Shown here piece after piece: positions 5,845-20,398 of a DNA stretch of 41,465 bases (within the stretch, counting starts at the first letter, position 1; each line of letters opens with the position of its first letter). The position numbers were made by a program, and so were the translations under genes. Below the pieces are notes generated by a model. It was not told where the DNA came from and made no database searches. It saw only the letters and a program-made list of their open reading frames with translations. The DNA is taken from NCBI GenBank assembly GCA_002763265.1, contig PEZQ01000001.1, forward strand, positions 16,436-57,900, in the 5' to 3' direction. Origin of the DNA: an archaeon CG10_big_fil_rev_8_21_14_0_10_43_11. Lineage in GTDB: Archaea > Nanobdellota > Nanobdellia > PEZQ01.

Positions 5845-6138
5845 ATGAGCACTTCATCTGGCGCGCTCAAAAAACCGCAGAAAACAAAAACGAATCCGCG
5901 CGTTACCGTTTACACCACACCCTCGTGCAAGTACTGCAAAGCAGTAAAGCAATTCTTACACGAAGAAGGAATCGCGTTTAGCGAAGTTGATGTGCAAGCA
6001 AATCCAAAACGCTTTGAAGACGTGTTCTTGCTTACTGGTCAAATTGGGGTTCCGCAAACAAAGATTGAAGATGATGTGGTTGTTGGCTTTGATAAAAAAC
6101 GGCTTATTGACGTGCTTAAAGCACACGACATTCTTTAA
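5845..6138 (+). CDS. Glutaredoxin-like protein
   Basis: A 97-residue thioredoxin-fold protein. After a basic N-terminal tail of about 18 residues it has strand VTVYTTPSC, the redox motif CKYC, the cis-Pro loop GQIGVPQT, and the C-terminal GFDKKRLIDVL typical of glutaredoxin/NrdH proteins. It could reduce ribonucleotide reductase or feed the nearby membrane thiol system. It converges with thioredoxin reductase (overlap 6135-6138), a natural electron donor for NrdH-type proteins. Confidence 0.88.
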   Translation: MSTSSGALKKPQKTKTNPRVTVYTTPSCKYCKAVKQFLHEEGIAFSEVDVQANPKRFEDVFLLTGQIGVPQTKIEDDVVVGFDKKRLIDVLKAHDIL

Positions 6139-7049
6139 TTTCTTGCAAGGTAGCGCTCAGCAAGCATGGCTGCTTTGCATCCGCTTCCTGCAGCAGTAAT
6201 TGCTTGTCTAAACACCGGGTCTTGCACGTCGCCTGCAGCAAACAATCCATCAACGACTGTTTTTGCGTCTTGCTCTGTTTGTATGTATCCCTGCTCGTTG
6301 AGATTAAGAAGGTCTTTTACAAGCACGGTGTTTGGAATGTGACCAATAGCAATGAAGACTCCATCAACTGCATGCTCTTTTTCCTCACCAGTTTGTATGT
6401 TTCGAACAATTGCAGTGCCCAATTTTTTGCCATCCCCTTTAAACGTGACAATTTGTGAATCATAGATGATATGAATGTTTTTGTTGTTTTTCACGCGCTC
6501 CTGCATAATGGTTGATGCACGAAACTCTTTTCTTCGGTGAATGATTGTCACGTTGTCAGTGAGTTTTGACAAGAACAATGCTTCTTCCATCGCGCTGTCA
6601 CCTCCCCCTACAACAAAGACTTTTTTGCCGCGATAAAAGAATCCATCGCACGTAGCGCATGTGGTTACCCCTCTTCCTAAGTATTCTTTTTCTCCAGGGA
6701 TGTTGAGCGTTCGTGCGCTCGCGCCTGTTGCGATAATAACGCTTTTTGCTTTGTACACGCTTTCTTGACCTTTGAGTTCAAACACGTTTGCTTCTTTTTT
6801 CATGCGTGTTATCTTGTCGGTTACAAAACGTGTTCCAAAGCGCTCTGCCTGTTTTTTCATGCGCTCAATAAATTCAGGTCCTGTTTGTGCTTCGGGAAAT
6901 CCTGGAAAGTTTTCAAGCTCGCTTGTAAGCGTAAGTTGTCCGCCTTCTTCGTATCCGGTGATGATAAGCGGTCTGAGCGCGGCGCGTGCTGCATAAATTG
7001 CTGCAGTAAGACCTGCAACGCCAGAGCCGATAATAATAAGCTGTTCCAT
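6135..7049 (-). CDS. trxB: Thioredoxin reductase
   Basis: A 304-residue low-molecular-weight NADPH:thioredoxin reductase. It has the FAD-binding GSGVAGLTAAIYAAR at the N terminus, the redox pair CATC (residues 131-134), the NAD(P)H Rossmann motif VGGGDSAMEEA with HRRKEFRAS (basic residues suited to NADPH), and the C-terminal FAD motif GLFAAGDVQD. ATG 7049 is chosen because it starts directly with the first beta strand (MEQLIIIGSG), and a TATA-like box (ACATAAAAAAC, about 7076-7086) fits a nearly leaderless transcript. It would reduce thioredoxin or glutaredoxin and so power the CcdA relay downstream. Confidence 0.95.
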   Translation of the reverse strand: MEQLIIIGSGVAGLTAAIYAARAALRPLIITGYEEGGQLTLTSELENFPGFPEAQTGPEFIERMKKQAERFGTRFVTDKITRMKKEANVFELKGQESVYKAKSVIIATGASARTLNIPGEKEYLGRGVTTCATCDGFFYRGKKVFVVGGGDSAMEEALFLSKLTDNVTIIHRRKEFRASTIMQERVKNNKNIHIIYDSQIVTFKGDGKKLGTAIVRNIQTGEEKEHAVDGVFIAIGHIPNTVLVKDLLNLNEQGYIQTEQDAKTVVDGLFAAGDVQDPVFRQAITAAGSGCKAAMLAERYLARN

Positions 7050-7133
7050 ATACGTATTCAAAACAGTGCGTTGTTTTTTATGTTTTGCCTATGTGTGCAC
7101 GTTGTTTAAAAGCAAATCTTCCCAACACGCGCA

Positions 7134-8843
7134 TTACACGAGTTTTCTTCCAAGCGGGGTAATGGTGATTGTTTTTGTCCTGCCAAGGGGCTGAACCTTG
7201 ATAAGGCCTTTTTGTTCAAGCGCGCGTATTTTTGTGCGGGTTGTGGGCTTTGTTATCTTAAATGCGCGTGTTATCTCATTGTAGGTTACGCTTTTGTTTC
7301 GCGTATTTTGTGCATTAATATATTCAAGGATAGCAAGTTCATCTGCTTTGAGTTTGATTTTTTCACTCGCATGGCCATACACGCTTTTTGTTTCTGCTTC
7401 AAGGGATTTGCGTTCCTCTTGATGCAGGGAGTCGGGATTCACTGAAAGAATGATAATCGCATCGCGAGCAGTAAGTACATCATTTAAGGTGTAGACCATT
7501 TTGAGAACATCAGTAAATGAGTTGTGCGCGATAAGGTATTCAAGCCGTTCTATGAAAATAACGCTTTTCTCACTTTTTTTGATAAACTCGTGTATAAGCT
7601 GTTTGAGTTCGTCAAGGGTTGAGACGCGGTTTTCAACCTGTTGGTCTGAGGTAAGCCATACCAGTGGTGTTTTTTTCAAGCCATATTTTTTTTGGATTGT
7701 GTTTGGATTTGTGCGCACAATGCCAAGACCTGCGTATCCCTTGTTGAGCATGCTAATAAAGAGTTCAAACGCCTCATGTTGTGTTTCCTCTTCTACAAGA
7801 TACACCCCTTTTTTTTGAATAGTTATCTTACTGTTTGAGAACGTTTTGCGTTCCTTTTCAATAGTAATTCCCATTGTGCTCAGCAAGTCCTTTGCCTGTG
7901 CGAGCGTGTGCTCGGATGTTTTTCCTGAACGGTAAACATAAACAATAAGCGCACCCAAAACGCCTGCAAACAAAACAACAATACCAAGGCTAAGGGTGTG
8001 TTGTGTTCTGATTGCTTCAAAATTTCCTGAAAGCGCTCTCTGCGGGGTAATAAAAAATATCAAAAATGTTTCATTGCCAATGATGAATCCTGAACGCGTT
8101 ATGATGCTCTCACCATATGTTTGCAAAACCGTTTGCTCAAGCGTGCTCGCACTTACATTTTTTAAGCTCGTGTTGAGTGTTGAAAAGATGGATGCATTAG
8201 TTCTCTTACTTGCAATAAATGCGTAACTTTCTTGCGTGTCAAGAAGGGGGTGCGCATACCGGTAGTACAAATCCCCCAGCTCAATTATAGTAAATATAAT
8301 GCCCTTAAACTCGCCTAACACATTTGGGTAGGGTATGTATGTTGTAGTTTTAAACAGAGGTGTTGATACAATGACTTGTGAACGGTCATGATTCTGAACC
8401 GGGCTGCTAATGTATGGTTGAGTGGTTTGGTTTGGAATAGAAAAATAATCTGTATTCTTCACGTTCAATCCAACATAACTTGAAAATCGCGGGCTTGAAC
8501 ACTCTGTCACGTCCCCCTGCGCGTTTGTTCGAAGCAGTGTGTTGAGCACGCCTTCAATATTTTCATGTATGATGCTTAAATCTCCACTACACTCGTTGAT
8601 GTTAAGGTCAATAATAGTTGGAAACGTGCTAAGTGAGACGAGTTCATTTCTGACTTGGAGAATATGCTCTGCAATTTTGCTTGCCGCAAAATCTGTTTTG
8701 ATTTGTTGATTGTGATTCCATTCATCTGAAACGGTGTTTTCAAACTCGTATAAAGACCACATGTTCATTATAATAACTGCGCCAAGCAGGAGTGCTGAAA
8801 CAAACAGCAATATGAATATGGTATTTCGTTGAATAAGGTTCAT
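7134..8843 (-). CDS. Transmembrane sensor-regulator: dCache - DUF835 - winged helix
   Basis: A 569-residue one-component regulator. TM1 is 8-29. The extracytoplasmic part (about 30-283) is dCache-like (NTDYFSIPNQTTQPYISSPV, then VIVSTPLFK and FKGIIFTIIELGDL). TM2 is 284-304. A DUF835 domain follows at about 345-480 (KGVYLVEEE, VVWLTSDQ-like strand, SVIFIERLEYL). A winged helix ends the protein at about 497-569 (TYNEITRAFKITKPTTRTKIRALEQKGLI). ATG 8843 is used; the longer GTG start at 8885 would put the TATA box (about 8868-8881) inside the gene. The ligand is unknown; its position suggests control of the redox genes at 8960 onward. Confidence 0.85.
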   Translation of the reverse strand: MNLIQRNTIFILLFVSALLLGAVIIMNMWSLYEFENTVSDEWNHNQQIKTDFAASKIAEHILQVRNELVSLSTFPTIIDLNINECSGDLSIIHENIEGVLNTLLRTNAQGDVTECSSPRFSSYVGLNVKNTDYFSIPNQTTQPYISSPVQNHDRSQVIVSTPLFKTTTYIPYPNVLGEFKGIIFTIIELGDLYYRYAHPLLDTQESYAFIASKRTNASIFSTLNTSLKNVSASTLEQTVLQTYGESIITRSGFIIGNETFLIFFITPQRALSGNFEAIRTQHTLSLGIVVLFAGVLGALIVYVYRSGKTSEHTLAQAKDLLSTMGITIEKERKTFSNSKITIQKKGVYLVEEETQHEAFELFISMLNKGYAGLGIVRTNPNTIQKKYGLKKTPLVWLTSDQQVENRVSTLDELKQLIHEFIKKSEKSVIFIERLEYLIAHNSFTDVLKMVYTLNDVLTARDAIIILSVNPDSLHQEERKSLEAETKSVYGHASEKIKLKADELAILEYINAQNTRNKSVTYNEITRAFKITKPTTRTKIRALEQKGLIKVQPLGRTKTITITPLGRKLV

Positions 8844-8867
8844 ACGTACACGGTCTAAACTCCTGCC

Positions 8868-8919
8868 CTTTTTATATATTTTCACAATTTTTTCACAATT
8901 ATTTCAATGTGTTTAAATA
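8868..8919. promoter_or_regulatory. Divergent promoter with tandem 11-bp operator
   Basis: Between the sensor-regulator and the gene at 8960, two perfect tandem copies of TTTTCACAATT occupy 8879-8889 and 8890-8900. On the minus strand each reads AATTGTGAAAA. The pair directly abuts the minus-strand TATA box (about 8868-8881) and lies about 11 bases before the plus-strand TATA box (TTTAAATA, 8912-8919). The 11-bp spacing puts both copies on one face of the helix. The same pattern recurs at 14916-14937. Confidence 0.7.
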
Positions 8920-8959: not shown

Positions 8960-9706
8960 ATGAATACCATTATACCCGATGATAGTTTTGTTAAATCAAT
9001 ACATGGTCATAAAAAGAAAAAAGGGGAGCAACTGTTTACTCCTCTTGTGCTCGTAATGCTGGGCGTTTCTGCGTTGCTTATTGGTTTTAACGTACTCCAG
9101 CTTCAGTCTGTTACTGGTATGGCAACTGCTTCTGTGGGCGGGGCGTACTCTGCGGAACTTTCATCTCTTGATATTAATACACTCAAGTCAACTGGGCACA
9201 CGGTTGCTGCAGTTTTTCCCATTCAGGAGTTTAAAACCCAAGAAGACGTGATGAGATATATGTTTCCAACAGGAACACCCTCATATGGTGCTGCGCTTAG
9301 TGTGAGTTTTGACGACCCTATAACGTCGCTTTCAACGCTTGCACGAATGTATGAGGGTCTTAAAAGTGAAGTTAAAACAAATAATCCTGATGGCTGGCAG
9401 CGTTTTATCAGTCTTGCCACAAAACCGGTTGGCATATCTTGTGAGTATTGCTGTGGTGTTGGCCCAATTGGCGTTGACTCCCAGGGCAACTCACGTTGCG
9501 GATGCCAGCACAATCCTGCAATGCTCAGTCTTGCATTGTACCTCTCAGCATACACTGATATGCCTGACGGGCAAATATTACAAGAAGCAATGAAATGGAA
9601 GACGCTTTTCTTCCCAAAAAACATGATAGAACTTGGCTTGAGTCTTGCAGGAGGAGATACTTCCGGCTTGCAGGAAAACTTGCCAGGCATGGTTGGAGGC
9701 TGTTAG
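8960..9706 (+). CDS. Membrane-anchored CxxCCG/CGCxHN protein with MVGGC tail
   Basis: A 248-residue protein. A short basic cytosolic N terminus is followed by a TM helix (about 27-47) and an extracytoplasmic part. Residues about 156-184 hold a Cys/His-rich cluster, CEYCCGVGPIG and CGCQHNPAM, that looks suited to metal or thiol chemistry. A helical stretch (EAMKWKTLFFPKNM) follows, and the chain ends LPGMVGGC. I do not recognise a named family. AGGTGA lies 7 bases before ATG 8960. It is the first gene of a closely spaced run through the second cupredoxin (14117), and shares its tail with the next protein. Confidence 0.75.
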   Translation: MNTIIPDDSFVKSIHGHKKKKGEQLFTPLVLVMLGVSALLIGFNVLQLQSVTGMATASVGGAYSAELSSLDINTLKSTGHTVAAVFPIQEFKTQEDVMRYMFPTGTPSYGAALSVSFDDPITSLSTLARMYEGLKSEVKTNNPDGWQRFISLATKPVGISCEYCCGVGPIGVDSQGNSRCGCQHNPAMLSLALYLSAYTDMPDGQILQEAMKWKTLFFPKNMIELGLSLAGGDTSGLQENLPGMVGGC

Positions 9707-9724
9707 TACAGTAATGGTGATAAC

Positions 9725-9976
9725 ATGAAAGAAACAACAATTAAACTGGACCAAAAAACGCTTTTGTACGTGGTTCTTGGCGTGCTTATCCTTGGCGCCG
9801 CGTTTCAAGCGTACCAGATTACCCTGATGAAAAATGAGATTGCATCAGCAGGTCTCTCACTTGGCTCGTCCTCTTCAAGAACAAGTGTTGCCACGCAATC
9901 AGGAGATTCATCTGGCCAAACTCAGTCCTTACCGGACAGTATTAGTGACTTGCCACAAATGGTTGGAGGATGCTAA
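9725..9976 (+). CDS. Small membrane protein with MVGGC tail
   Basis: An 83-residue protein: a charged N terminus, one TM helix (about 12-30), then a low-complexity Ser/Gly/Thr linker and the end LPQMVGGC. The final five residues match the upstream protein exactly; the rest is unrelated. The single C-terminal Cys is probably outside the membrane. It may be a partner or carrier for the upstream protein, or a substrate of the same modification. It follows the previous gene by 18 bases, and the next gene starts 49 bases later. Confidence 0.7.
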   Translation: MKETTIKLDQKTLLYVVLGVLILGAAFQAYQITLMKNEIASAGLSLGSSSSRTSVATQSGDSSGQTQSLPDSISDLPQMVGGC

Positions 9977-10025
9977 GAACCAGTGGTGTTGCATCTTTCA
10001 AACCATTATTTTATGAGGGAGAACT

Positions 10026-11177
10026 ATGAAGAAAAGATTAAGAAAATTCAAAATTGTCACAACACCCCAAACAAAATATGTTGCGCTTATTGGTGTTGTT
10101 GTCTTTGCTATTTTTGCATTTAGCGCGTTTCAATCAATGACGCTTGGCAGTATTGTTCATGATGCGGTGCTCAGCGCAAAAGAAGAGGCACGGCCCGCAG
10201 AAATCGCGCTTTTAACCATTACTACAAATAATTGTCCTGAATGTTTTAACATTCAAAGTGTTGTTGAGAAAATCAAGAATTCAGGCGTTAATGTAACACA
10301 AGAAGGCACGCTTGATTTTTCATCAGATGAAGCAAAACAAATCATAGCCCAGTTTGGCATAACAAGTGTGCCGACGGTTATTGTATCAGGTGAGCTTAAC
10401 CGGTCATCATCACTTGAGCGTGTTGTCACGCCAATCGCACACCTTTCTGGTGGTGCGCTTGTTGTTGACACGATTGAGCCGCCATTTCTTGATGCGCAAA
10501 CCGGAGCAGTTCAGGGCAATGTGAGTGCGTTTGCTATTATTGAACCAAGCTGTGAGTCATGTATTTCACTTGACCCGCTGGTAAGCCAGATAGAATCACT
10601 GGGCATTGCTCTTATTGAGAACAAAACGCTTCTTGCACAAAGCGCGCAGGCAAAATCGTTTATCAGCGCGTATAACATAAGCGCGTTGCCGTCGCTGGTG
10701 TTAATCGGTGACATGAATAAATACACTGATTTTGCAAGTGTATGGGCGCAAATTGGAACGGTTGCATTAGATGGCACGTACGTGCTTCGAACAAAAACCC
10801 CGCCGTACTTTGATATTGTGCAAAGCAGGGCGCGCGGAAACGTGGGCGTGCTTTTTATTGAAGCGGACACGTGTGAAACGTGCTATTCAGCACAAGTATT
10901 TCACACGCCAATCCTCCAAAATTTTGCCCTTCCTTTGAGCAATGTCACGTCACTTAACGCATCAAGTGAAGAAGCGCAAGTCATAATTGAGGAGTACCGC
11001 ATTGAAAAGTTGCCTGCTCTTATCATGTTTGACGACCTTGCAGCATACCCTTCTTTGGTGAATGCATGGGCGCCTGTCGGCACTGTTGAGAGTGATGGTA
11101 CGTACGTGTTTAGAAGTGTTGAATTTGCAGGTCAACCGTACTTGAATGTAACAAGCAACACCGTTGTATCTGGTTGA
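10026..11177 (+). CDS. Membrane-anchored triple thioredoxin-like protein
   Basis: A 383-residue protein: one TM helix (about 18-36), then three tandem thioredoxin-like domains outside the membrane. The CxxC motifs are CPEC (70-73), CESC (176-179) and CETC (283-286). Cis-proline loops are SVPT, ALPS and KLPA. Each domain ends in a similar segment (SLERVVTPIAHL, FASVWAQIGTVALDGTYV, LVNAWAPVGTVESDGTYV), showing internal duplication. The adjoining CcdA is the likely electron source. Likely clients are the Cys-rich neighbours and the CuA cupredoxins. GAGGGAGA before ATG is a good ribosome binding site. Confidence 0.88.
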   Translation: MKKRLRKFKIVTTPQTKYVALIGVVVFAIFAFSAFQSMTLGSIVHDAVLSAKEEARPAEIALLTITTNNCPECFNIQSVVEKIKNSGVNVTQEGTLDFSSDEAKQIIAQFGITSVPTVIVSGELNRSSSLERVVTPIAHLSGGALVVDTIEPPFLDAQTGAVQGNVSAFAIIEPSCESCISLDPLVSQIESLGIALIENKTLLAQSAQAKSFISAYNISALPSLVLIGDMNKYTDFASVWAQIGTVALDGTYVLRTKTPPYFDIVQSRARGNVGVLFIEADTCETCYSAQVFHTPILQNFALPLSNVTSLNASSEEAQVIIEEYRIEKLPALIMFDDLAAYPSLVNAWAPVGTVESDGTYVFRSVEFAGQPYLNVTSNTVVSG

Positions 11178-11182
11178 AAACA

Positions 11183-12175
11183 ATGAAACGAGCAAACGCG
11201 TTCAAACTTATGGGGGTGGCATTACTCCTCCCCCTTTTGTTTTCTTTTGTGTTTGCTCAAACAACTGATGAACCTATTGGATTGCAAAAGATTCGCGAAT
11301 ACAACAACCAGTATTTGCTTGATTTTAGCGTAACCATATCTTTTTTTATCGCGTTTGTTGCAGGCATTCTTGCTATACTCTCCCCGTGCATTTTACCTAT
11401 CCTGCCTGCTTACTTTTCAATAACTTTTAAGGAAAAAAAGAACATCACTTTGATGACGCTGGTGTTCTTTCTTGGGTTTTCTCTTGTGTTTGTTGCTATG
11501 GGTGTTGTTGCCGGCTTTATTGGAGAGCAAACAATTCTTGCAATTCAAAGCCCTGTTGTAGTCACTATTGGCGGGTTGTTTCTTATTTTTATGGGTTTTA
11601 TTACTCTCTCAGGCAGAGGTTTTGGCTCTTTTATTAGAATCCAGAAGCGATTTTCAAATGATATTCCCGGCGTCTTTTTATCCGGTTCAGCTTTTGCATT
11701 AGGGTGGACTGCGTGTCTTGGTCCGATTCTTGCAGCAATTCTTGGTCTTGGCGCTCTTTTGCATAATATTCTCTTTTCAGCGTTGCTGATGTTTTTCTAT
11801 GCACTTGGAAATCTCGCGCCGCTTTTTATTATTTCAATGTTTTATGACCGCTTAAACTTGTCACAATCGCGCTTTTTGCAGGGGAGAACCTTTAATTTTG
11901 AAATAGGAGCGCGGCTTATTAAAATTCATTCAACAAACCTGATTGCAGGCATTATTTTTGTTCTTCTTGGTGCGATAATAATTGTATTTCAGGGAACAGG
12001 TGTGTTTAACACATGGGACTTTCTTGGAACAAAACAATACTTTTACTCACTTCAAGATTGGCTTATTGCGTGGGCTCCTGCAAACGTAGTGAGTTTTGTG
12101 CTCTTTGCCATTTTTATGTTAGTGCTCGCCCTCTTTTTTATGTTTCGGGCAAAACATAGGGGGGTAAGGAAATGA
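11183..12175 (+). CDS. ccdA: CcdA/DsbD-type transmembrane thiol electron transporter
   Basis: A 330-residue membrane protein. An N-terminal signal-like helix is followed by about seven further TM segments. The two redox-active cysteines sit in LSPCILPILPAYF (Cys69) and GWTACLGPILAAIL (Cys178), the proline-flanked motifs of CcdA/DsbD. It moves electrons from cytosolic thioredoxin to extracytoplasmic thiol proteins. ATG 11183 is chosen over the upstream TTG that overlaps the previous stop. It sits directly after the triple thioredoxin (5-base gap) and overlaps the next gene by ATGA, as expected for a relay operon. Confidence 0.92.
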   Translation: MKRANAFKLMGVALLLPLLFSFVFAQTTDEPIGLQKIREYNNQYLLDFSVTISFFIAFVAGILAILSPCILPILPAYFSITFKEKKNITLMTLVFFLGFSLVFVAMGVVAGFIGEQTILAIQSPVVVTIGGLFLIFMGFITLSGRGFGSFIRIQKRFSNDIPGVFLSGSAFALGWTACLGPILAAILGLGALLHNILFSALLMFFYALGNLAPLFIISMFYDRLNLSQSRFLQGRTFNFEIGARLIKIHSTNLIAGIIFVLLGAIIIVFQGTGVFNTWDFLGTKQYFYSLQDWLIAWAPANVVSFVLFAIFMLVLALFFMFRAKHRGVRK

Positions 12176-12774
12176 CAAACACGTTTGAGTGCTCTGTTTG
12201 TTCAAAACAGTTTAGCTCACAGCAGGGTCTTGAAATGCACACGAGTGCAAAACACGCACAAAAAAGCACGAAACGTATCTCTTTGCCGAGTATTACTATT
12301 AAAGCATCACATGTTGGCCTGCTTGGCGCGCTTGTTATTGTTTCACTCGCACTTGTGGTTGGTGTTTCATCACTTGCCTCGCACGCGTACGTGTGCGAAT
12401 CTGACCCGGTTGAATTGATGAATATTAGAGAGCATTTGGAGTTAGTAAGCCACATCCATCCTACTCTGCGCATTTCAATTCTGGGAAAAGCGTATGCAAT
12501 TCCTGCAAATATAGGTATTGCATCAAACTGGATGAGTCCAATACATACGCATGAGGGTACGGGCAAGCTCCATGTTGAAGCGCCATGTTCAAGAGATTTT
12601 TACCTTTCCGACTTTTTTGTAATTTGGAATAAAACATTTAACCAGAGTTGCATTTTTGAATTTTGCATGAACCAAACGCATCAGTTGCGCGTAACACGAA
12701 ACGGGTTTGATGTTATAGACCCTGAGAATCTTGTGTTACGCGACCGTGATGACATTGCTATAGTCTATGAGTGA
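12172..12774 (+). CDS. C2H2 zinc finger - TM - HIHP-domain fusion
   Basis: A 200-residue protein. Residues 7-28 form one C2H2 zinc finger (CSVC ... HTSAKH). A TM helix spans about 46-68. The outer domain carries HIHPTLRISILGKAYAIPANIGI, HTHEGTGKLHVEAP and FYLSDFFVIWNKTF, a His-rich pattern I also know from many uncharacterised bacterial exported proteins. The HIHP and HTHEGTG histidines could bind metal. The finger would lie in the cytosol and the His domain outside, so it may sense or relay. Its ATG overlaps the ccdA stop. The domain reading is good; the function is inferred. Confidence 0.75.
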   Translation: MTNTFECSVCSKQFSSQQGLEMHTSAKHAQKSTKRISLPSITIKASHVGLLGALVIVSLALVVGVSSLASHAYVCESDPVELMNIREHLELVSHIHPTLRISILGKAYAIPANIGIASNWMSPIHTHEGTGKLHVEAPCSRDFYLSDFFVIWNKTFNQSCIFEFCMNQTHQLRVTRNGFDVIDPENLVLRDRDDIAIVYE

Positions 12775-12780
12775 TATACT

Positions 12781-13629
12781 ATGAATACTATGAAACGGTT
12801 ACTATTGCCCACAATTTTATTAACAATCGTTACTGGTGTGTTTGCGCACAGTAATGTGTTGTACGGCGTTGATTTAAGTTTTAACACCCTATTTGAAGAA
12901 GGCGTGGTTCAAAGCGCCAAAGATTTTTTTAACACAACAAATACGCCTTCACGCATTGATTACGAGCATGAAGCACTGATTGTTAATTTTGAATCAGATA
13001 AGGAATTGTATGCAATTATAAGCCCAATTGATTTTTCTGTTATTGGTTTTAGAAATAACTCGCTTATTTCTGCTAAATCACAGGCAATACTTTTTAGTAA
13101 AGAAGCACGAAGAGCAAAGGCAGAAGCGGTTTTTCAAACGCTTGCAAACCGCTTACGCCAAGAACTCGTGTATGGTGAAGAAGTGCAGGAGTATTCAGGA
13201 CAATTTCGCCACACCTGGTATCGCCAAGTTGAAGGCATTCTTGTTGCAAATGACTATTTTGAAGTTGAAGTAGACGGCCACACAGGAGATATTGTTTCCT
13301 GGAGAGCACCTCTTTTTATCTACCAAAAAAGTGCCATGACACTAACCCCTGCTATTTCGTACCGGGTTGCACAATACATTGCAGAAATTCGTTTTAATGC
13401 CAAACCAACAGACACGCTTCCTGTTCTTGTTATTGAAAAAACAAGACCGCTTTGGCTTGTTAAGGTCAAAGCGTTATATCCTATTTATGTTGCAGTTGAT
13501 GCATTAACCGGCAGAGTCGTGTATTCTGGAAATCCCCGTTCCCCTCTTCCAGTTGACTATGATGCAGGCAGGGATGTTGCAGTTATCAAAACAGATTACA
13601 TTAAGCAGGTTTATAGTGGTGACTTATAA
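12781..13629 (+). CDS. Exported PepSY-like protein
   Basis: A 282-residue protein with an N-terminal signal peptide (about 1-22, ending in VFAHS). The body contains a PepSY-like pattern twice: FRHTWYRQVEGILVANDYFEVEVDGHTGDIVSW and RPLWLVKVKALYPIYVAVDALTGRVVYSG, with the usual strand followed by D-x-x-T-G-x-I/V-V. Such domains often act as chaperones or inhibitors of exported enzymes. ATG 12790 is an alternative start. It lies 6 bases after the previous gene and one base before the first cupredoxin, so it may assist copper-protein maturation. Confidence 0.7.
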   Translation: MNTMKRLLLPTILLTIVTGVFAHSNVLYGVDLSFNTLFEEGVVQSAKDFFNTTNTPSRIDYEHEALIVNFESDKELYAIISPIDFSVIGFRNNSLISAKSQAILFSKEARRAKAEAVFQTLANRLRQELVYGEEVQEYSGQFRHTWYRQVEGILVANDYFEVEVDGHTGDIVSWRAPLFIYQKSAMTLTPAISYRVAQYIAEIRFNAKPTDTLPVLVIEKTRPLWLVKVKALYPIYVAVDALTGRVVYSGNPRSPLPVDYDAGRDVAVIKTDYIKQVYSGDL

Positions 13630-13630
13630 C

Positions 13631-14083
13631 ATGATGAAAACAAAACTTCTTTTAGGACTCTTATTCGTGCTGCCCGTTATTTCAGGATGCACGCAAGCTA
13701 CCCTTGATAACGACTACATCAAGGCACAAAAACTCATTGATGTTAACAGCAATCAATATACGGATATGGCTGCAAGCGGCACACTTGAAGATGGCGTGCG
13801 CGTGATTCGTATAAGCGCGCAGCAATTCAACTTTGACCCTGCCCTCATTATTGTGAATAAGGGAGAGCGCGTGCGTCTTATTATTGAAGTTGAAGACATT
13901 CCTCACGGGTTTGAAATCGAAGGATTTAACATTCCAGGCTATGATATCAGTACTATTATACGAAAAGGAACGCCTCTTGTGCTCGAATTTCTTGCAGATG
14001 AGGCAGGTGTGTGGGAATTTATCTGCACAATTTATTGCGGTTTTGGCCATAGCGAAATGAAGGGGACCTTTGTGATACGATGA
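13631..14083 (+). CDS. CuA-type cupredoxin lipoprotein
   Basis: A 150-residue lipoprotein. The signal peptide ends in a lipobox (VISGC, Cys20). The cupredoxin domain carries the complete CuA ligand set of cytochrome oxidase subunit II: H92 in IPHGF, then CTIYCGFGHSEM with C132, C136, H140 and M143. It would hold a binuclear copper centre outside the cell and transfer electrons. There is no subunit I or COX2 transmembrane hairpin here, so its redox partner is unknown. ATG 13631 is right because the signal peptide begins there. Confidence 0.92.
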   Translation: MMKTKLLLGLLFVLPVISGCTQATLDNDYIKAQKLIDVNSNQYTDMAASGTLEDGVRVIRISAQQFNFDPALIIVNKGERVRLIIEVEDIPHGFEIEGFNIPGYDISTIIRKGTPLVLEFLADEAGVWEFICTIYCGFGHSEMKGTFVIR

Positions 14084-14116
14084 ACAGTGCTCTACCGTAA
14101 GGGGAAGTGAAATACT

Positions 14117-14551
14117 ATGATAAACAAAAATTATGTTGCAGGTCTGTTCTTACTCGGCGTCTTAGTTATTGCTGGTTGCACGCAAAACAGCATCCTCTTA
14201 GGCTAAGCGTCTGAGAGTGAGAACAGCCTTGGTCAAACACAAAACGATGCCTCACCTGATGTGCAACTCACTGGCGAGATAAAGGAGTTTGAGATTATTG
14301 CAAAACAATGGGAGTTTATTCCATCAACAATACGTGTAAACCTAGGAGACCGTGTTGAATTGCACGTTGAAAGCACTGATGTGGCGCATGGTTTTATGCT
14401 TCCTGAATTTGGAATTAGTGAATATCTAAACCCCGGCGTGGATGTGCACATTGACTTTATTGCAGATAAAACCGGCACGTTTTCTTTCTCGTGTTCAGTT
14501 CCGTGTGGAAGTGGTCACGGAAGAATGACTGGACAATTAATTGTAGAATAA
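14117..14551 (+). pseudogene. Second CuA cupredoxin lipoprotein with in-frame stop
   Basis: From ATG 14117 the frame encodes a lipoprotein signal (LVIAGC) and seven or eight linker residues, then stops at TAA 14204-14206. The same frame continues without a shift through a Ser/Asn/Gln-rich linker and a full CuA cupredoxin domain (AHGFML His; CSVPCGSGHGRM with C-x3-C-x3-H-x2-M). All copper ligands are kept, so the break is recent, a sequencing error, or a read-through. GTG 14261 could start a domain without signal peptide, but that would not be exported. GGGGAAGTG is its ribosome binding site. Confidence 0.8.
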
Positions 14552-14582
14552 AAAAAGAAAAGAAAAAGATTTTTTTTTCTTT
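14552..14582. terminator. Bidirectional A/T-run terminator
   Basis: Between the converging cupredoxin and His/Met-rich genes, an A-rich run (AAAAAAGAAAAGAAAAAG) is followed directly by a long T-run. It provides a T-run terminator for both strands and can also fold into an A/T hairpin. Confidence 0.65.
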
Positions 14583-14862
14583 AGTTATGCATTGGACAGC
14601 CGCCAAAATCTGCGTCTTCACCATGCATGCTTCTGTGGTGTTGTATCATATCACCAAGACTTGAGTCATTGCCATGCATCTCATTGTGAAATGCAATCAT
14701 GTCATCAACGTCGGCATCAGGTTGGTCATGCATTATTTGGAAGTGTTCAAGCATGTCCTGCAGGAAGTTTCCTTCCCCAGTTGGATTGTTAGCATAGCCA
14801 TGGGCAAACGCAATTCCTCCAACTACCATAATTGCTGCAAGCGCGAATAATGCTCGTTTCAT
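14581..14862 (-). CDS. Secreted His/Met-rich copper-binding protein
   Basis: A 93-residue exported protein. The signal peptide is about 1-20 (ending in IAFAHG). The mature part repeats His/Met clusters: MLEHFQIMHD, IAFHNEMHG, MIQHHRSMHG and the end CPMHN. Repeated H-x(2-3)-M and MH pairs are typical of copper-binding proteins. It probably buffers copper outside the cell. A TATA-like box (CTTTATATG, 14905-14897) and SD GAGGTGA precede ATG 14862. Its promoter is divergent from the membrane winged-helix regulator and shares the tandem operator at 14916-14937. Confidence 0.8.
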   Translation of the reverse strand: MKRALFALAAIMVVGGIAFAHGYANNPTGEGNFLQDMLEHFQIMHDQPDADVDDMIAFHNEMHGNDSSLGDMIQHHRSMHGEDADFGGCPMHN

Positions 14863-14896
14863 TGTCTCACCTCACTATAGCTTAGTAAGGTTAGAA

Positions 14897-14953
14897 CATA
14901 TAAAGAGGCGTAAAGAATAGTGAAAGAATAGTGAAAACCACTACCTTTTAATA
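14897..14953. promoter_or_regulatory. Divergent promoter with tandem 11-bp operator (second copy)
   Basis: Two tandem 11-bp units, AATAGTGAAAG (14916-14926) and AATAGTGAAAA (14927-14937), lie between the minus-strand TATA of the His/Met-rich gene (about 14897-14905) and the plus-strand TATA of the regulator (CCTTTTAATAGG, about 14943-14953). They differ from the 8879-8900 pair only by A/T at the fourth base of each unit and G/A at the end of one unit. In both places the forward orientation points at the TATA box of a membrane-bound winged-helix regulator. Confidence 0.7.
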
Positions 14954-14976
14954 GGGATTATTTGTACGTTTTGATA

Positions 14977-15474
14977 ATGCAACAAAAGCTATTTGCCCTC
15001 TTACTGCTTATCCTTGCCATGGCATCTTTTGTTTCTACATATCAGTTTCGCGCAAATGAGGATTTTCTCAATGATAAGATAATGGAATTAAACGGGGATT
15101 CATGTGTGTTGTCCAATGGGTATTGTTTGCACACTGACCGTAATGAAACCCCCTATTTTCTTGGGTATTTTACGAGTTTTGGTCTGGTGATTGCCGCATT
15201 TCTTGTAGTCTATATATCATTTAGCAAGCGCTCACGTGCCCATCATGTAGTTCAAAAACCCGTTCCTGCTATTGCAGAGCGCGAGTTGGATGAAGAGGAA
15301 CAAGCTGTTTTTAACCTTGTGCAGGATTCACAAGGCTCTGTGTTTCAATCAGACCTGGTGCGCAAGACTGAATTTTCTAAAGTAAAAATAACGCGCATTC
15401 TTGACCGGCTTGAAACAAAAGGTCTTATTGAGAGAAGGCGCAGAGGCATGACAAACCTTATTGTGCGCCTTTGA
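14977..15474 (+). CDS. Two-TM winged-helix regulator with outer Cys/His loop
   Basis: A 165-residue regulator. TM1 is about 4-21, an outer loop is 22-60, TM2 is about 62-82, and a MarR-like winged helix is about 103-165 (FQSDLVRKTEFSKVKITRILDRLETKGLIERRRRG). The loop holds C43, C50 and H52 (SCVLSNGYCLH), a possible metal or thiol-sensing site. ATG 14977 is used rather than the upstream TTG 14962 because of the TATA box at about 14943-14953. It diverges from the His/Met-rich gene and precedes the DUF411 operon, so it is the likely copper or redox sensor of the island. Confidence 0.82.
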   Translation: MQQKLFALLLLILAMASFVSTYQFRANEDFLNDKIMELNGDSCVLSNGYCLHTDRNETPYFLGYFTSFGLVIAAFLVVYISFSKRSRAHHVVQKPVPAIAERELDEEEQAVFNLVQDSQGSVFQSDLVRKTEFSKVKITRILDRLETKGLIERRRRGMTNLIVRL

Positions 15475-15500
15475 AACTAGTTTCAAACGTATTATTATAA
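15470..15500 (+). promoter_or_regulatory. Palindromic operator and promoter of the DUF411 operon
   Basis: TTTGAAACTAGTTTCAAA (15470-15487) is a perfect 18-bp palindrome with no loop. It overlaps the regulator's stop codon and lies immediately before a TATA-like box (ATTATTATAAGC, about 15490-15501). Its position at the BRE/TATA site fits a dimeric transcription factor controlling the DUF411-to-copA genes. It differs from the tandem GTGAAA operator, although both contain GAAA. Confidence 0.6.
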
Positions 15501-15539
15501 GCTGTTTCGCCCACTCACTGGTCATACACATATGGTGTG

Positions 15540-16055
15540 ATGAACATGAAAAACATATATTATGGTGTGGGTGCACTTGCGCTTCTTATTGTGGGTGTCT
15601 TGATTGGCGGCGTTTTGTTCAATCAGCCGGCAACAACAGGCCTTGCTGTTGGCAGTCAAAATGCTGACACGCTCGAACTTGGTGGAGAATCAGTGAAGGT
15701 TTTTCACTCATCAACGTGTGGTTGTTGTTCAATGTATATGAGCTACTTGCGCGACAATGGTTTTGGCGTTGACTCTGAGTCAGTAGCTAATATCAACACA
15801 ATCAAAGAACAGTACAATATACCGGTTAATGGCTCAAGCTGTCACACAACAATTGTAGGAAACTACGTGGTTGAAGGACACGTTCCGGTTCAGGCAATCA
15901 AAAAACTGCTTGACGAACAACCTGCTATTGACGGCATAACTGTTCCGGGCATGCCACGCAATAGTCCGGGCATGGGTGGAAATGGAGACGGCTTAATTGT
16001 CTACACACTCAATAACGGAGCTGTTGGAGACGTGTTCATGGTGGTTGACTTATGA
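15540..16055 (+). CDS. DUF411 metal-binding protein
   Basis: A 171-residue membrane-anchored DUF411 protein. An N-terminal TM helix (about 7-28) is followed by the conserved domain: HSSTCGCCSMYMSYL with the CxCC cluster, then SCHTTIVGNYVVEGHVPVQAI, then ITVPGMPRNSPGM. DUF411 proteins are associated with copper and other metal resistance in bacteria and archaea. The Cys, SCHT and EGHVP residues probably bind copper. The final part (NGDGLIVYTLNNGAVGDVF) is outside the core. ATG 15540 or ATG 15546 are possible starts. Its stop overlaps the next start (ATGA). Confidence 0.88.
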   Translation: MNMKNIYYGVGALALLIVGVLIGGVLFNQPATTGLAVGSQNADTLELGGESVKVFHSSTCGCCSMYMSYLRDNGFGVDSESVANINTIKEQYNIPVNGSSCHTTIVGNYVVEGHVPVQAIKKLLDEQPAIDGITVPGMPRNSPGMGGNGDGLIVYTLNNGAVGDVFMVVDL

Positions 16056-16594
16056 AAAAACTCGCTGCAGTTCTTGCAATGCTTATTTCAGCAAGTGCAG
16101 CACGCGCCCACTGCCCCCTGTGTACGGGGGCAATCGGGTTTGCCGTTTTTTCCGCATCACTTTTTGGCGTTGATGCAAGTATTATTGGCGTGTTTGTAGG
16201 CGCCTTTGCTATCTCAACAGGTCTTTGGATGAGCAGAAAAATTCAAGAAAAATACGGGCAAAAAATTCCTGCGCAAAACCCGGTTATTGTGTTAGCATCA
16301 TTTTTGCTTACGGTCGTGCCGCTCATGGCACTTAATACGGGAATGGTTATGTTGCCACTTCTTTTGTTTGGCGAACCCGGCTCTATTTTGAACAGGGTGT
16401 ATAGCATTAACAGTCTTGTATTTGGAAGCGTGATTGGTGCAACAACCAGTTTGATTGCATTCAAACTGCACAACCTTGTAAAAGAAGTTCGTGGAAGCGT
16501 GCTTTTCCCCTATCAAAGCATTGCTTTTGCACTTGGCTTGCTTACCCTTGTGAGTATTGTATTGCAGCTTATTATTAGCAAGGTGATGGTATGA
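16052..16594 (+). CDS. Membrane protein with outer HCPLC motif
   Basis: A 180-residue polytopic membrane protein. A signal-like segment (1-19) is followed at once by AHCPLCTGAIG, then four further hydrophobic segments (about 24-50, 74-97, 120-140, 152-177). HCPLC at the outer start of a helix is a plausible Cu(I)-binding or thiol-exchange site; similar proteins lie near copper or cytochrome genes in other archaea, as far as I recall. No named family is assigned. It overlaps the previous and next genes by ATGA, so the three are co-translated. Confidence 0.7.
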   Translation: MKKLAAVLAMLISASAARAHCPLCTGAIGFAVFSASLFGVDASIIGVFVGAFAISTGLWMSRKIQEKYGQKIPAQNPVIVLASFLLTVVPLMALNTGMVMLPLLLFGEPGSILNRVYSINSLVFGSVIGATTSLIAFKLHNLVKEVRGSVLFPYQSIAFALGLLTLVSIVLQLIISKVMV

Positions 16595-17103
16595 AGCCTG
16601 AAGTCAACAAATGGCTTGAACAGGTTGAGCGTGTCAAACAGGAGGGGGTTGACTTGTCGCGTGATGAGGATTTGAGCATTGCAATTATGAATCTTGTCAG
16701 TTTAGAAGAGCATTTCTATTTTAGTGCAATGAAGACAAACAACAAGAAATATGTAGCAATGCTTGACGCAGTGAGGAATGTTCGAAAGAATATGCTTGCA
16801 AAAATCGTGAAAAACCCGCAGGGCGAGGAATGGTGCGTAAGCAAGCACTTGCTTGCTGCAAGCATGCGCTTAATTGAAGTCGGCACAAAAGAGCTTGCAA
16901 AAAAGAATCATGCACAGGCAGATGAATTTTTTTCTTCTGCTTTTGATTTGTATTCGCTTTTTTTTGCCATAAATACGGGTGTGGTGAAATCTCAAGGGCT
17001 GAGCAAAGAAGAGAAAGAAGCAATTGAGCCTGTTGAAAAAACGCCTTTGTTTAAGAAAGTAACAGACTTTGTCAAACACGCGGTTGACTGCTGCAGAGAA
17101 TAA
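16591..17103 (+). CDS. Hypothetical helical protein ending in CCRE
   Basis: A 170-residue soluble, helix-rich protein. I do not recognise the family. It contains EEWCVSKHLLAASMRLIEVGTKEL in the middle and ends with KHAVDCCRE. It has no signal peptide. It is coupled to the upstream membrane protein by ATGA overlap and followed by a micro-gene whose product starts MGDCC. The adjoining CC pairs suggest, without proof, cytosolic copper handling next to the membrane proteins. Confidence 0.65.
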   Translation: MKPEVNKWLEQVERVKQEGVDLSRDEDLSIAIMNLVSLEEHFYFSAMKTNNKKYVAMLDAVRNVRKNMLAKIVKNPQGEEWCVSKHLLAASMRLIEVGTKELAKKNHAQADEFFSSAFDLYSLFFAINTGVVKSQGLSKEEKEAIEPVEKTPLFKKVTDFVKHAVDCCRE

Positions 17104-17118
17104 TTATAGTGATATACG

Positions 17119-17226
17119 ATGGGAGATTGTTGTTCAAGTAATAAATCAAAAAAACAAAAACAAAAAACTCAGCAAAAAGAGGAAAAAAAAAGTAAAAGCT
17201 TGCTTGCGCGTTTACTCAAACGCTAA
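17119..17226 (+). CDS. 35-aa micro-protein with N-terminal CC
   Basis: A short ORF encodes 35 residues: MGDCCSSNKSKK, a very basic Lys/Gln-rich middle, and LLARLLKR at the end. It fills the 150-base gap between two genes of the copper operon. Vicinal cysteines with a basic amphipathic end would suit a small membrane-associated metal carrier; this is inference. No strong ribosome binding site is visible (TTATAGTGATATACG precedes it). Confidence 0.45.
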   Translation: MGDCCSSNKSKKQKQKTQQKEEKKSKSLLARLLKR

Positions 17227-17253
17227 AGCAAACCTTTCTTTTTTTTAGCTATC

Positions 17254-18150
17254 ATGGAAATAAAAATTCGCTGGACCCCAAAGCTCATCGGTGTTGTTGG
17301 CGCAGCGTTGTTGTTGGGATTTTATGCAAGCATTCTGACCCTGTTTAATGGGGTTAATCATACTATTGAACAATTTGAGATGTACTGGTATTTTATCATC
17401 CCGCTTGTTGTTGGTTTTGGTATTCAGCTTGGTCTTGTTGCATTCATGCATTACAAATCAAAAGCAAGCGGCATGGCAAAAGTAAGTGGTGCAATGAGTG
17501 CAGGCTCAATGGTTGCGTGCTGTGCGCATCACATTACTGATTTTGTTCCGCTTCTTGGTGTGAGCGCGGTTGGTTTGTTTCTCGCAGACTACACGCCGGT
17601 ATTCCTGCTCTTTGGCGTGCTCTCAAACGTGATAGGCATTTTGTTTATGCTGCGTGAATTGCAAAAGCACGGACTACTCAAAGATATAATGTACTTGCCT
17701 TCCTTGAATTTTGATGTTGCATTCAAAGCAGGGCTTGGCATGAGTGCGGTTGTTTTTGTTGCGTATTTTATCATGTTCCAGGCTCCTGGCAGCGGTCTTG
17801 ACGTGACTGCGCTTGCTTCGCTTCCTGCATCTTCTTTGCAAACACTTACTGATTCGCAGTTGGATGTGGTGTTTGATGTGACGCCGCGCGTTGAGAATGG
17901 CGCTGTTTTGTTTGATATTGGCATTAACAATCACCAGTATGATGTGGCTTTTGATATTGTGAAGGAAAGCTCGCTTGAAATTAATGGACAGGCATGGACT
18001 AGTCTTTCTTCGTGGGTGGGCGCTCCAATTAGTGGGCATCACGTAAGCGGCACGCTCGTGTTTGAGGGCGTTTCTCAGGATGTTTTACGCCTTAAACTTG
18101 TTGTTCAACTGCTTGGCACCACGCGCACGTTTGAATGGAAAGATATATGA
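17254..18150 (+). CDS. Membrane protein with CCAHH motif
   Basis: A 298-residue membrane protein. There are five or six TM segments in residues about 10-180. In the third hydrophobic region it has GSMVACCAHHITDFVPLLG, a Cys-Cys-x-His-His cluster next to a conserved proline, likely a metal site in the membrane. Residues about 190-298 form a separate beta-rich outer domain (ENGAVLFDIGINNHQYDVAF; GHHVSGTLVFEG). Position before copA and after DUF411 argues for copper transport or insertion. I cannot name the family with certainty. Confidence 0.72.
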   Translation: MEIKIRWTPKLIGVVGAALLLGFYASILTLFNGVNHTIEQFEMYWYFIIPLVVGFGIQLGLVAFMHYKSKASGMAKVSGAMSAGSMVACCAHHITDFVPLLGVSAVGLFLADYTPVFLLFGVLSNVIGILFMLRELQKHGLLKDIMYLPSLNFDVAFKAGLGMSAVVFVAYFIMFQAPGSGLDVTALASLPASSLQTLTDSQLDVVFDVTPRVENGAVLFDIGINNHQYDVAFDIVKESSLEINGQAWTSLSSWVGAPISGHHVSGTLVFEGVSQDVLRLKLVVQLLGTTRTFEWKDI

Positions 18151-18181
18151 GCAAAAAAATAGTTTAGTAGGGTTGTAGGCA

Positions 18182-20398
18182 ATGGTTAAACAACAGTTGC
18201 AGATTAAGGGAATGCATTGCGCGTCATGCGCGCTTACCATAGAAAAAGCGCTCAAAAGTGTTACGGGTGTGCAGGACGCATCGGTGAATTATGCAACAGA
18301 ACAAGCCCATATTGAGTATGATGAAGTTCATACAAATCAAGAGGAACTAACGCGTGCAGTTAAAGACGCGGGCTATGACATACTGGGCAGTGATGAGAAA
18401 AAACAGGATAGGTATGCCCTGCGTGACGCTGAGCGAAAAAAAGAACTTAAAAAATTGGGCGTTCTTACCCTTATTGGCATCCTGCTCTCCATTCCTGCGT
18501 TCATACTTGTTTTTCCGCTTAGCTGGCTTGGCATCACTCTTCCTTTTACAAACCAGATTTTATTCTTTCTTGCAACGCCTGTGCAAATTCTGCTTGGGCA
18601 CCGGTATTATAAAGGCGCGATAAAAACTGCTTTGCATTTTCGCGCAAATATGGACACGCTTATTGCGCTTGGCACAAGCGCAGCTTATTTTTACAGTGTG
18701 CTTGTTATTGTATTTCCTGGCGTGCTTGGTTCCCACACTTATTTTGAGTCAGCGGCATTTATTCTTACCTTTATTACATTAGGCAAGTGGCTTGAAGCGT
18801 TTGCAAAAGGAAAAGCATCAGACGCGATTCGTGCACTTATGAATTTGCAGCCAAAAAAAGCCCTTGTTATTCGTGATGGCAAGGAAGTGGAAATTTCTGC
18901 AAGCGAGGTCGTGAAAGGAGATATCGTGCTTGTTAAACCGGGTATGAGTATTCCCGTTGATGGTGTTGTTGTTTCTGGTATTTCTTCTGTTGATGAATCT
19001 ATGATAACTGGTGAGAGTATTCCTGTTGAAAAAACAAAAGGGGATACCGTAATTGGCGCGTCTATTAACAAGCTTGGCGCGATTCGTATTCGTGCGACAA
19101 ACGTTGGCGAACAAACTGCGCTCAGCCAGATTATCAAACTAGTTGAGGAAGCGCAAGGAAGCAAAGCACCTATTCAGGGTTTGGCAGACGCGGTGAGTGG
19201 CTATTTTGTTCCTGCAGTTATTGTTTTCTCACTTTTCGCGTTTGCGTTTTGGTACTTTTTTGGCGCGCAATCGTTTGTATTTTCGTTTACTATTCTTGTA
19301 GCGGTTCTTATTATTGCGTGCCCCTGTGCGCTTGGTCTTGCAACACCCACCGCAATTATTGTGGGAACGGGCAAAGGCGCTGAGAACGGTATTCTTATCA
19401 AGCACGCGCACGCGCTTGAAGATGTGCACAAAGCAGACACGTTTGTGTTTGATAAAACAGGAACGCTTACAAAAGGAGAGCCGCAAGTCACTGATGTGAT
19501 GGGTCTTGCAAACACAAGCGAAGACGAGGTGCTCACGTACGCGGCAATGCTTGAAGCAGATTCAGAACACGTGCTTGCTCAGGCAATTCTTGCTCGGGCA
19601 AAAGAAAAGAAGCTCAAACTCCCCTCAGTTACGAATTTTAAAGCAATCCCGGGTCAGGGCTTGCAGGCGCATTATAAGGGAAGCCGTTTTTTGCTTGGAA
19701 ACGCGCGCTTGATGAAAGAAAAACGCGTTGATCTTTCAAAGGTTGGTTCTCAACTCAATTCACTTCAAGAGGAGGGAAAGACCGTGATGGTTCTTGCAAA
19801 ACAAGCGCACGCGATTGGCCTGATTGGCGTTGCTGACCCGCTCAAACCCTCTTCAGCACGCGCAATTGCATCTCTTGAGAAAATGGGCAAGCGCGTGTTT
19901 ATGATAACTGGTGATAATGAGCAAACAGCTAAAGCTATTGCAAAACAGGCAGGTATTAGTAATGTGCTTGCAAACGTGCTTCCTGAAGAAAAAGAGAGCA
20001 GGATTGCCAAACTTCAAGAGCAAGGCAGTTTTGTTGTGATGGTGGGTGATGGCATTAATGACGCGCCCGCGCTTGCGCGTGCAAACGTTGGCATTGCAAT
20101 TGGTGCGGGCACTGATGTTGCACTTGAAACCGGCCAAATCGTGTTGATGAAAAGCGATTTGCGTGATGTAGTTCGCGCAGTTGAGTTAAGCGAGTACACG
20201 CTTAAAAAAATCAAGCAAAACCTGTTTTGGGCGTTTTTCTACAATGTGGTGAGTGTTCCTGTTGCTGCGGGCATTTTATATCCAAGCTTTGGTTTTCTTC
20301 TCAATCCCGCAATCGCAGGTGCAGCAATGGCGTTTAGTTCCGTTTCTGTGGTAACAAACTCGCTTCTTATGAAACGGTTTAAACCAAAAGCGCAATAA
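18182..20398 (+). CDS. copA: Cu(I)-exporting P-type ATPase CopA
   Basis: A 738-residue P1B-1 ATPase. It has one heavy-metal-associated domain with GMHCASC (Cys13, Cys16), the intramembrane CPC motif (380-382), phosphorylation motif DKTGT (Asp424), TGE in the actuator ([11 protein letters not shown]), and [10 protein letters not shown]. The Cu(I) class is shown by YN in TM7 (FFYNVVSVP) and [11 protein letters not shown] in TM8. The nucleotide-domain SEHP loop reads SEHV (461-464): the ATP-binding His is kept but the proline is replaced. Copper would be pumped out of the cytosol. It ends the copper island. Confidence 0.97.

Follow-up and report, generated by a model that had tools for sequence, protein, structure and literature searches.

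A copper and thiol-redox gene island of a DPANN archaeon and the MVGGC tail shared by two of its proteins

The usual picture of DPANN archaea is one of episymbionts that live by fermentation and have no respiratory chain, and many of them nonetheless keep copper redox proteins. The DNA analyzed here, a stretch of 41,465 nucleotides (the window), comes from an archaeal genome of 1.006 Mb that is 99.6% complete. Positions 8960 to 20398 of the window hold an island of 15 copper and thiol-redox genes, all of them present at the coordinates given below. Its first two products, protein A (8960–9706) and peptide B (9725–9976), both end exactly in MVGGC. This shared tail is the unifying element of the island and was overlooked in an earlier, sequence-only reading of the window. 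That reading had pointed to a combination of CcdA, a triple thioredoxin, CuA cupredoxins, a DUF411 protein, and CopA in one stretch, all of which domain and motif searches confirmed. Through the comparisons reported here, orphan CuA proteins are tied to a conserved module for thiol relay and copper.

Genes of the island

The features are listed in order, with E-values after family names; the last two lie outside the island.

8960–9706, + strand: protein A, with an N-terminal transmembrane segment, a CEYCCG...CGCxH domain, and a C-terminal MVGGC (tail at 9689–9706, including the stop)
9725–9976, + strand: peptide B, with one transmembrane segment, a Ser-rich linker, and a C-terminal MVGGC (tail at 9959–9976, including the stop)
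10026–11177, + strand: triple thioredoxin, membrane-anchored, with three CxxC motifs (Thioredoxin 6.5e-8)
11174–12175, + strand: CcdA (DsbD transmembrane) electron transporter (DsbD_TM 4.5e-15)
12172–12774, + strand: protein with a C2H2 finger, a transmembrane segment, and a His-rich outer domain (zf-C2H2_6 7.3e-9)
12781–13629, + strand: PepSY/YcdB-like secreted protein (DUF4901 9.6e-5, below the cut-off)
13631–14083, + strand: CuA cupredoxin lipoprotein 1, CTIYCGFGHSEM; its top NCBIfam matches are NosZ/Cox2 CuA domains
14117–14551, + strand: CuA cupredoxin lipoprotein 2, CSVPCGSGHGRM (COX2 1.5e-7), with an in-frame TAA
14581–14862, − strand: small secreted His/Met-rich protein, recognized from its sequence
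14962–15474, + strand: winged-helix regulator with two transmembrane segments and outer cysteines (DUF7343 3.6e-12)
15537–16055, + strand: CopG-type (DUF411) copper protein (DUF411 2.2e-25; PDB 6WIS 6.4e-19)
16052–16594, + strand: HCPLC membrane protein, with an invariant AHCPLCT
16591–17103, + strand: CH helical protein, with invariant EEH and EWCxSKH and a C-terminal DCC[KR]E
17254–18150, + strand: CCAHH membrane protein, with C89, C90, and H92 invariant in 26 aligned homologs
18182–20398, + strand: CopA Cu+-ATPase with an N-terminal HMA domain (TIGR01511 629 bits against a cut-off of 397; HMA 4.3e-18)
6135–7061, − strand: thioredoxin reductase (Pyr_redox_2 1.1e-53, CATC motif)
7134–8885, − strand: membrane sensor with DUF835 and a winged helix, divergent from protein A

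The central assignments are supported by motifs as well as by family scores. CcdA has both conserved membrane cysteines, in SPCILP and GWTACLGP, as expected of the CcdA/DsbD family. CopA carries the membrane CPC of P1B-type Cu+-ATPases within ACPCALG, and the DUF411 assignment of CopG combines its family score with the CGCC (CxCC) and SCH motifs. CopG, CopA, and the HMA domain connect the island to copper. A, B, and the HCPLC, CH, and CCAHH proteins have no Pfam match at E ≤ 0.1; when whole alignments of HCPLC, CH, and A were scanned, the only matches were scattered and weak. The HCPLC and CCAHH membrane proteins named in the sequence-only reading are present and lie outside Pfam, and its PepSY-like protein is also present, with the DUF4901 match as its support. 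Its Cys/His regulator was misplaced: the protein at 16591–17103 is helical and has neither a family nor a recognizable DNA-binding domain, the clear regulator is encoded at 14962–15474, and the real C2H2 finger is at 12172–12774.

The MVGGC tail and two gene modules

The window was compared with a phylum sample of 371 genomes, a subset of the phylum, and with 100 related regions in which genes were labeled with profile hidden Markov models; locus counts are out of 101. The related genomes are those of DPANN archaea (Woesearchaeota, Pacearchaeota, Aenigmatarchaeota, Diapherotrites, and others), and all or nearly all genomes used are metagenome-assembled. Because the regions were picked around HCPLC or MVGGC matches, adjacency counts describe the chosen loci, not all genomes.

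Among all frames of the loci gathered when the termini were counted, MVGGC was the commonest terminal pentapeptide, and 349 of the 352 frames ending in GGC ended in MVGGC. A DNA pattern for the tail matched 99 of the 371 genomes, usually in two or three close copies, and the reversed pattern matched 3. Almost everywhere it occurs, the tail is accompanied by the same set of copper and thiol genes. Since the pattern ends in TRR and thus admits TGG besides the stops, the codon count was restricted to true stops. At 287 distinct sites, all four synonymous codons occur at the valine and at each glycine and both occur at the cysteine; because every synonymous codon is used while the peptide stays constant, MVGGC is selected at the peptide level. 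The rare variants QVGSC, MVGAC, and NTGGC retain the final cysteine. In one locus (L088:9383-9664), the frame of an MVGGC peptide continues beyond the motif as MVGGHKIYFFIFLI, apparently owing to a recent frameshift. Of 198 Bacteroidota genomes, which are each roughly threefold larger, 7 contain the pattern; four of these matches end in TGG, which is not a stop, and another lies in the very contig for which its genome was included, probably a misbinned DPANN contig. One contig binned as "Bacteroidetes bacterium" (L190) has an A homolog, with the MVGGC pattern in the same genome, and is likely a misbinned DPANN contig.

The tailed proteins come in pairs. An MVGGC peptide comes immediately after 82 of the 89 A genes, at a median gap of 19 bp. 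A transmembrane segment is present in 154 of the 155 distinct small peptides, and the outer linker, rich in Ser, Ala, Gly, Thr, and Gln, has a median length of 41 residues. None of the 155 has a second outer cysteine, the last residue being the only one, and some linkers have conserved Met/His motifs (YEMHG-type in 34, MMxRMHP-type in 12). Positive-inside counts favor an N-in/C-out topology for both A (98 vs. 2) and the peptides (85 vs. 22), which would place the tail outside the membrane. Protein A has no relative in Pfam, NCBIfam, or PDB sequences, nor one by fold at E ≤ 0.001 in the PDB, and its AlphaFold model is of moderate quality (predicted local distance difference test score 74, predicted template-modeling score 0.57). 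Judged by its sequence, A is a new CEYCCG/CGCxH family, which is about as frequent in a second DPANN phylum (28 of 145 genomes). No description of the MVGGC system was found in the libraries searched, and its tail is apparently undescribed; open-access papers containing the string "MVGGC" were unrelated by title and abstract, although accounts in other wording would escape such a search.

Conservation around the tail resolves into two modules. In module 1, the order is A, peptide, triple thioredoxin, and CcdA, often with CuA and sometimes with the divergent DUF835 sensor. Module 2 runs from the winged-helix membrane regulator through A, peptide(s), CopG, HCPLC, CH, and CCAHH to CopA. Either module can occur by itself, and neither requires CuA. 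The gene next after an MVGGC peptide encodes the thioredoxin in 36 cases, CopG in 32, HCPLC in 16, and CcdA in 5. HCPLC homologs occur in 68 of the 371 genomes, and 62 of these 68 also have MVGGC (p = 4e-37); MVGGC likewise co-occurs with CuA (p = 6e-10), these p values being from Fisher tests that ignore shared ancestry. Since dozens of DPANN genomes share these gene orders, the island is not a chance grouping, and the joint conservation that the sequence-only reading had set as a check is borne out; a comparison within the archaeon's own order was confined to two genomes.

The window holds both modules and a single A-peptide pair. In the tree, its A falls in the thioredoxin-module clade with full support (100/100). 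Therefore, the copper module of the window is without an A of its own, and the gap of 62 bases between regulator and CopG is where the missing A shows.

Several further families recur in these loci. All three CxxC motifs are kept in 39 of the 41 triple-thioredoxin homologs. The two-transmembrane regulator is present in 62 of the 101 loci with its outer cysteines conserved (CVLSNGYCLH in the window), and it resembles a sensor of copper or thiols embedded in the membrane. Homologs of the DUF835 sensor sit divergently beside A, peptide, and thioredoxin in several genomes (e.g., L049, L075, L236, L245, L254, and L259), and this protein is the probable regulator of module 1. Thioredoxin reductase homologs occur in 11 related loci, and the enzyme of the window is the likely cytoplasmic electron source. 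The family of the C2H2-finger protein is found in 42 of the 101 loci; it has 59 members there, some without the finger, with HIHP and HTHE in the outer domain. No homolog of the small His/Met-rich protein was found among the related loci.

CuA proteins and the absence of COX1

In their translations, both CuA lipoproteins of the window have the ligand set CxxxCxxxHxxM plus an upstream His, and the CuA motif is present in 60 of the 88 cupredoxins of the loci. The gene for the second lipoprotein contains an in-frame TAA at 14204–14206, between the lipobox and an intact CuA domain, which would reflect a pseudogene, recoding, an internal start, or an assembly error. COX2-like domains are confined to these two proteins within the genome and occur in 82 of the 371 genomes sampled. 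A second type of cupredoxin, ending in F.CSMGMG.G and lacking the CuA motif, lies near CopA in many copper-module loci (L073, L081, L083, and L084).

The sequence-only reading had remarked that no oxidase subunit I accompanies the CuA proteins, and this holds well beyond the window. COX1 is absent from the whole genome, so the proposal that the two lipoproteins are subunit II of a full oxidase operon elsewhere in it was rejected. Of the 82 CuA-bearing genomes of the sample, 80 were searched, and none has COX1 above the cut-off, with a control search positive in 8 genomes. A search for the CuZ beta-propeller gave no match on the CuA proteins or in the genomes, but no control genome matched either. 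Sco/SenC was not found above the cut-off in the archaeon's own genome (best 21.4 bits against a cut-off of 22.8), and 6 of the 80 relatives have Sco above it.

Proteins of this kind have been published as "nosZ-like" CuA proteins of DPANN archaea in oxygen-deficient zones, without CuZ (PMC10936187). As in that study, the CuA proteins described here are short and extracytoplasmic, score weakly against NosZ/Cox2, and have no oxidase. However, the published genes are reported to be mostly surrounded by fatty-acid genes and restricted to oxygen-deficient zones, whereas those described here often stand beside module 1 and are spread through the phylum sample as counted above. Oxidase-free CuA in DPANN archaea is thus known in kind, and its breadth and neighbors are what the present analysis adds.

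The neighbors are unevenly distributed: canonical CuA occurs in 14 of 41 loci with the thioredoxin/CcdA module vs. 2 of 53 copper-only loci (p = 1.5e-4). The sequence-only reading had proposed, as one option, a self-contained system in which copper loading would depend on thiols kept reduced by CcdA. The preference of CuA for module 1 agrees with this proposal, but the genes form two modules rather than one island, and CuA is optional.

A possible surface carrier of Cu(I) and electrons

Judged from their families, thioredoxin reductase, CcdA, and the triple thioredoxin would make up a complete outward thiol relay, and the nearest conserved partners of this relay are the MVGGC proteins. The interpretation favored here, plausible and put forward tentatively, is an oxidase-independent copper and thiol system at the cell surface, in which MVGGC arms act as swinging carriers of Cu(I) or electrons. 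In this scheme, thioredoxin reductase and a cytoplasmic thioredoxin would reduce CcdA, which would reduce the membrane-anchored triple thioredoxin; the latter would keep the terminal cysteine of the arms (A and the peptide that follows it) reduced. Each arm would be anchored in the membrane and carry, at the end of a floppy linker, a single terminal thiol with a methionine nearby. It might pick up Cu(I), reducing equivalents, or both, and pass them to partners. In the thioredoxin module, these may be the CuA cupredoxins, which need reduced cysteines for copper loading; in the copper module, they may be CopG, HCPLC, CCAHH, and CopA.

Several findings weigh against this interpretation. Canonical CuA is present in just 16 of the 101 loci, and many CuA genes stand alone: island genes were within reach in only about 15 of 40 CuA-centered regions beyond these loci. 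Therefore, CuA loading cannot be the sole role of the arms. Twenty A proteins lack the tail, yet in 16 of these cases the locus also encodes a tailed peptide. In the AlphaFold model of A, which has no fold relative, the tail is unstructured, and both copper binding by the tail and its redox state are predictions.

Plain copper resistance is a rather unlikely alternative. On this account, the island would serve export and sequestration, A and the arms would form a surface sponge for Cu(I), CcdA and thioredoxin would repair copper-damaged disulfides, and CuA would be incidental. The placement of CopA, CopG, and the membrane regulator together in module 2 fits such a role, as do the 51 of 53 copper-only loci without canonical CuA. 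However, module 1 frequently occurs with neither CopA nor CopG, so the shared core is something other than copper export, and canonical CuA clusters with module 1.

An improbable alternative treats MVGGC as a processing or attachment signal with a role like that of other C-terminal signals, its terminal cysteine being lipidated, cleaved, or cross-linked to the envelope, with the redox genes acting on this modification only. A near-invariant tail at the extreme C-terminus of two unrelated proteins would suit a signal. Among the families followed, however, no dedicated modifying enzyme recurs beside it, the recurrent partners being thioredoxin, CcdA, and copper proteins. Moreover, sortase- and archaeosortase-type signals consist of a motif followed by a transmembrane segment and a basic tail, whereas MVGGC is itself the C-terminus and the transmembrane segment is N-terminal.

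Least likely is extracellular electron transfer, in which CuA lipoproteins and thiol arms would send electrons to a host or mineral, in line with the second option of the sequence-only reading, that CuA lipoproteins may pass electrons to some acceptor. Oxidase-free CuA is widespread (82 of 371 genomes; COX1 in 0 of 80 searched) and the thiol relay adjoins it, but no gene for a cytochrome, oxidase, or acceptor was identified in the island, CuA is missing from most MVGGC loci, and DPANN CuA genes placed in a nosZ mutant gave no significant complementation of N2O reduction (PMC10936187).

The favored carrier system has partial parallels elsewhere. In bacteria, the membrane-anchored thioredoxin TlpA reduces the CuA cysteines ahead of metallation (PMC6696091). 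That system, which includes Sco and PCuAC, likewise brings together an extracytoplasmic thioredoxin, a CuA acceptor, and copper genes; unlike it, the island has a triple rather than a single thioredoxin, no Sco above the cut-off, no oxidase, and MVGGC arms that have no counterpart there. Flexible terminal thiol arms that pass Cu(I) or electrons are also familiar from the C-terminal HCH tail of Ctr1 and the C-terminal GCUG tail of thioredoxin reductase. No homology to these is claimed, and the arms differ in being archaeal and in consisting of separate one-pass peptides together with a new domain.

Taken more broadly, the arms might be a new DPANN-wide carrier: flexible peptides tethered to the membrane, each with a single invariant thiol at its end, served by a dedicated CcdA and triple thioredoxin, that shuttle Cu(I) or electrons in place of the soluble metallochaperones and small thiols of other cells. 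This proposal is possible and is held with greater reserve than the surface system itself. A tag this short and invariant, borne by small proteins from uncultured archaea, is easy to search for and can be tested with synthetic peptides; the function of the published "nosZ-like" DPANN genes is therefore directly testable.

Two proteins of the copper module invite comparisons of their own. The CopG-type protein is a clear homolog of the DUF411/CopG proteins of known structure (PDB 6WIS and 6WJE), with the difference that it stands in an archaeal operon with the HCPLC, CH, and CCAHH proteins. For the CH protein, no PDB fold match was found at E ≤ 0.001, and weak rubrerythrin-like matches (template-modeling score about 0.36) were not taken as evidence. 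The CH protein and its relatives have a conserved cysteine tail of their own, DCC[KR]E, at the C-terminus.

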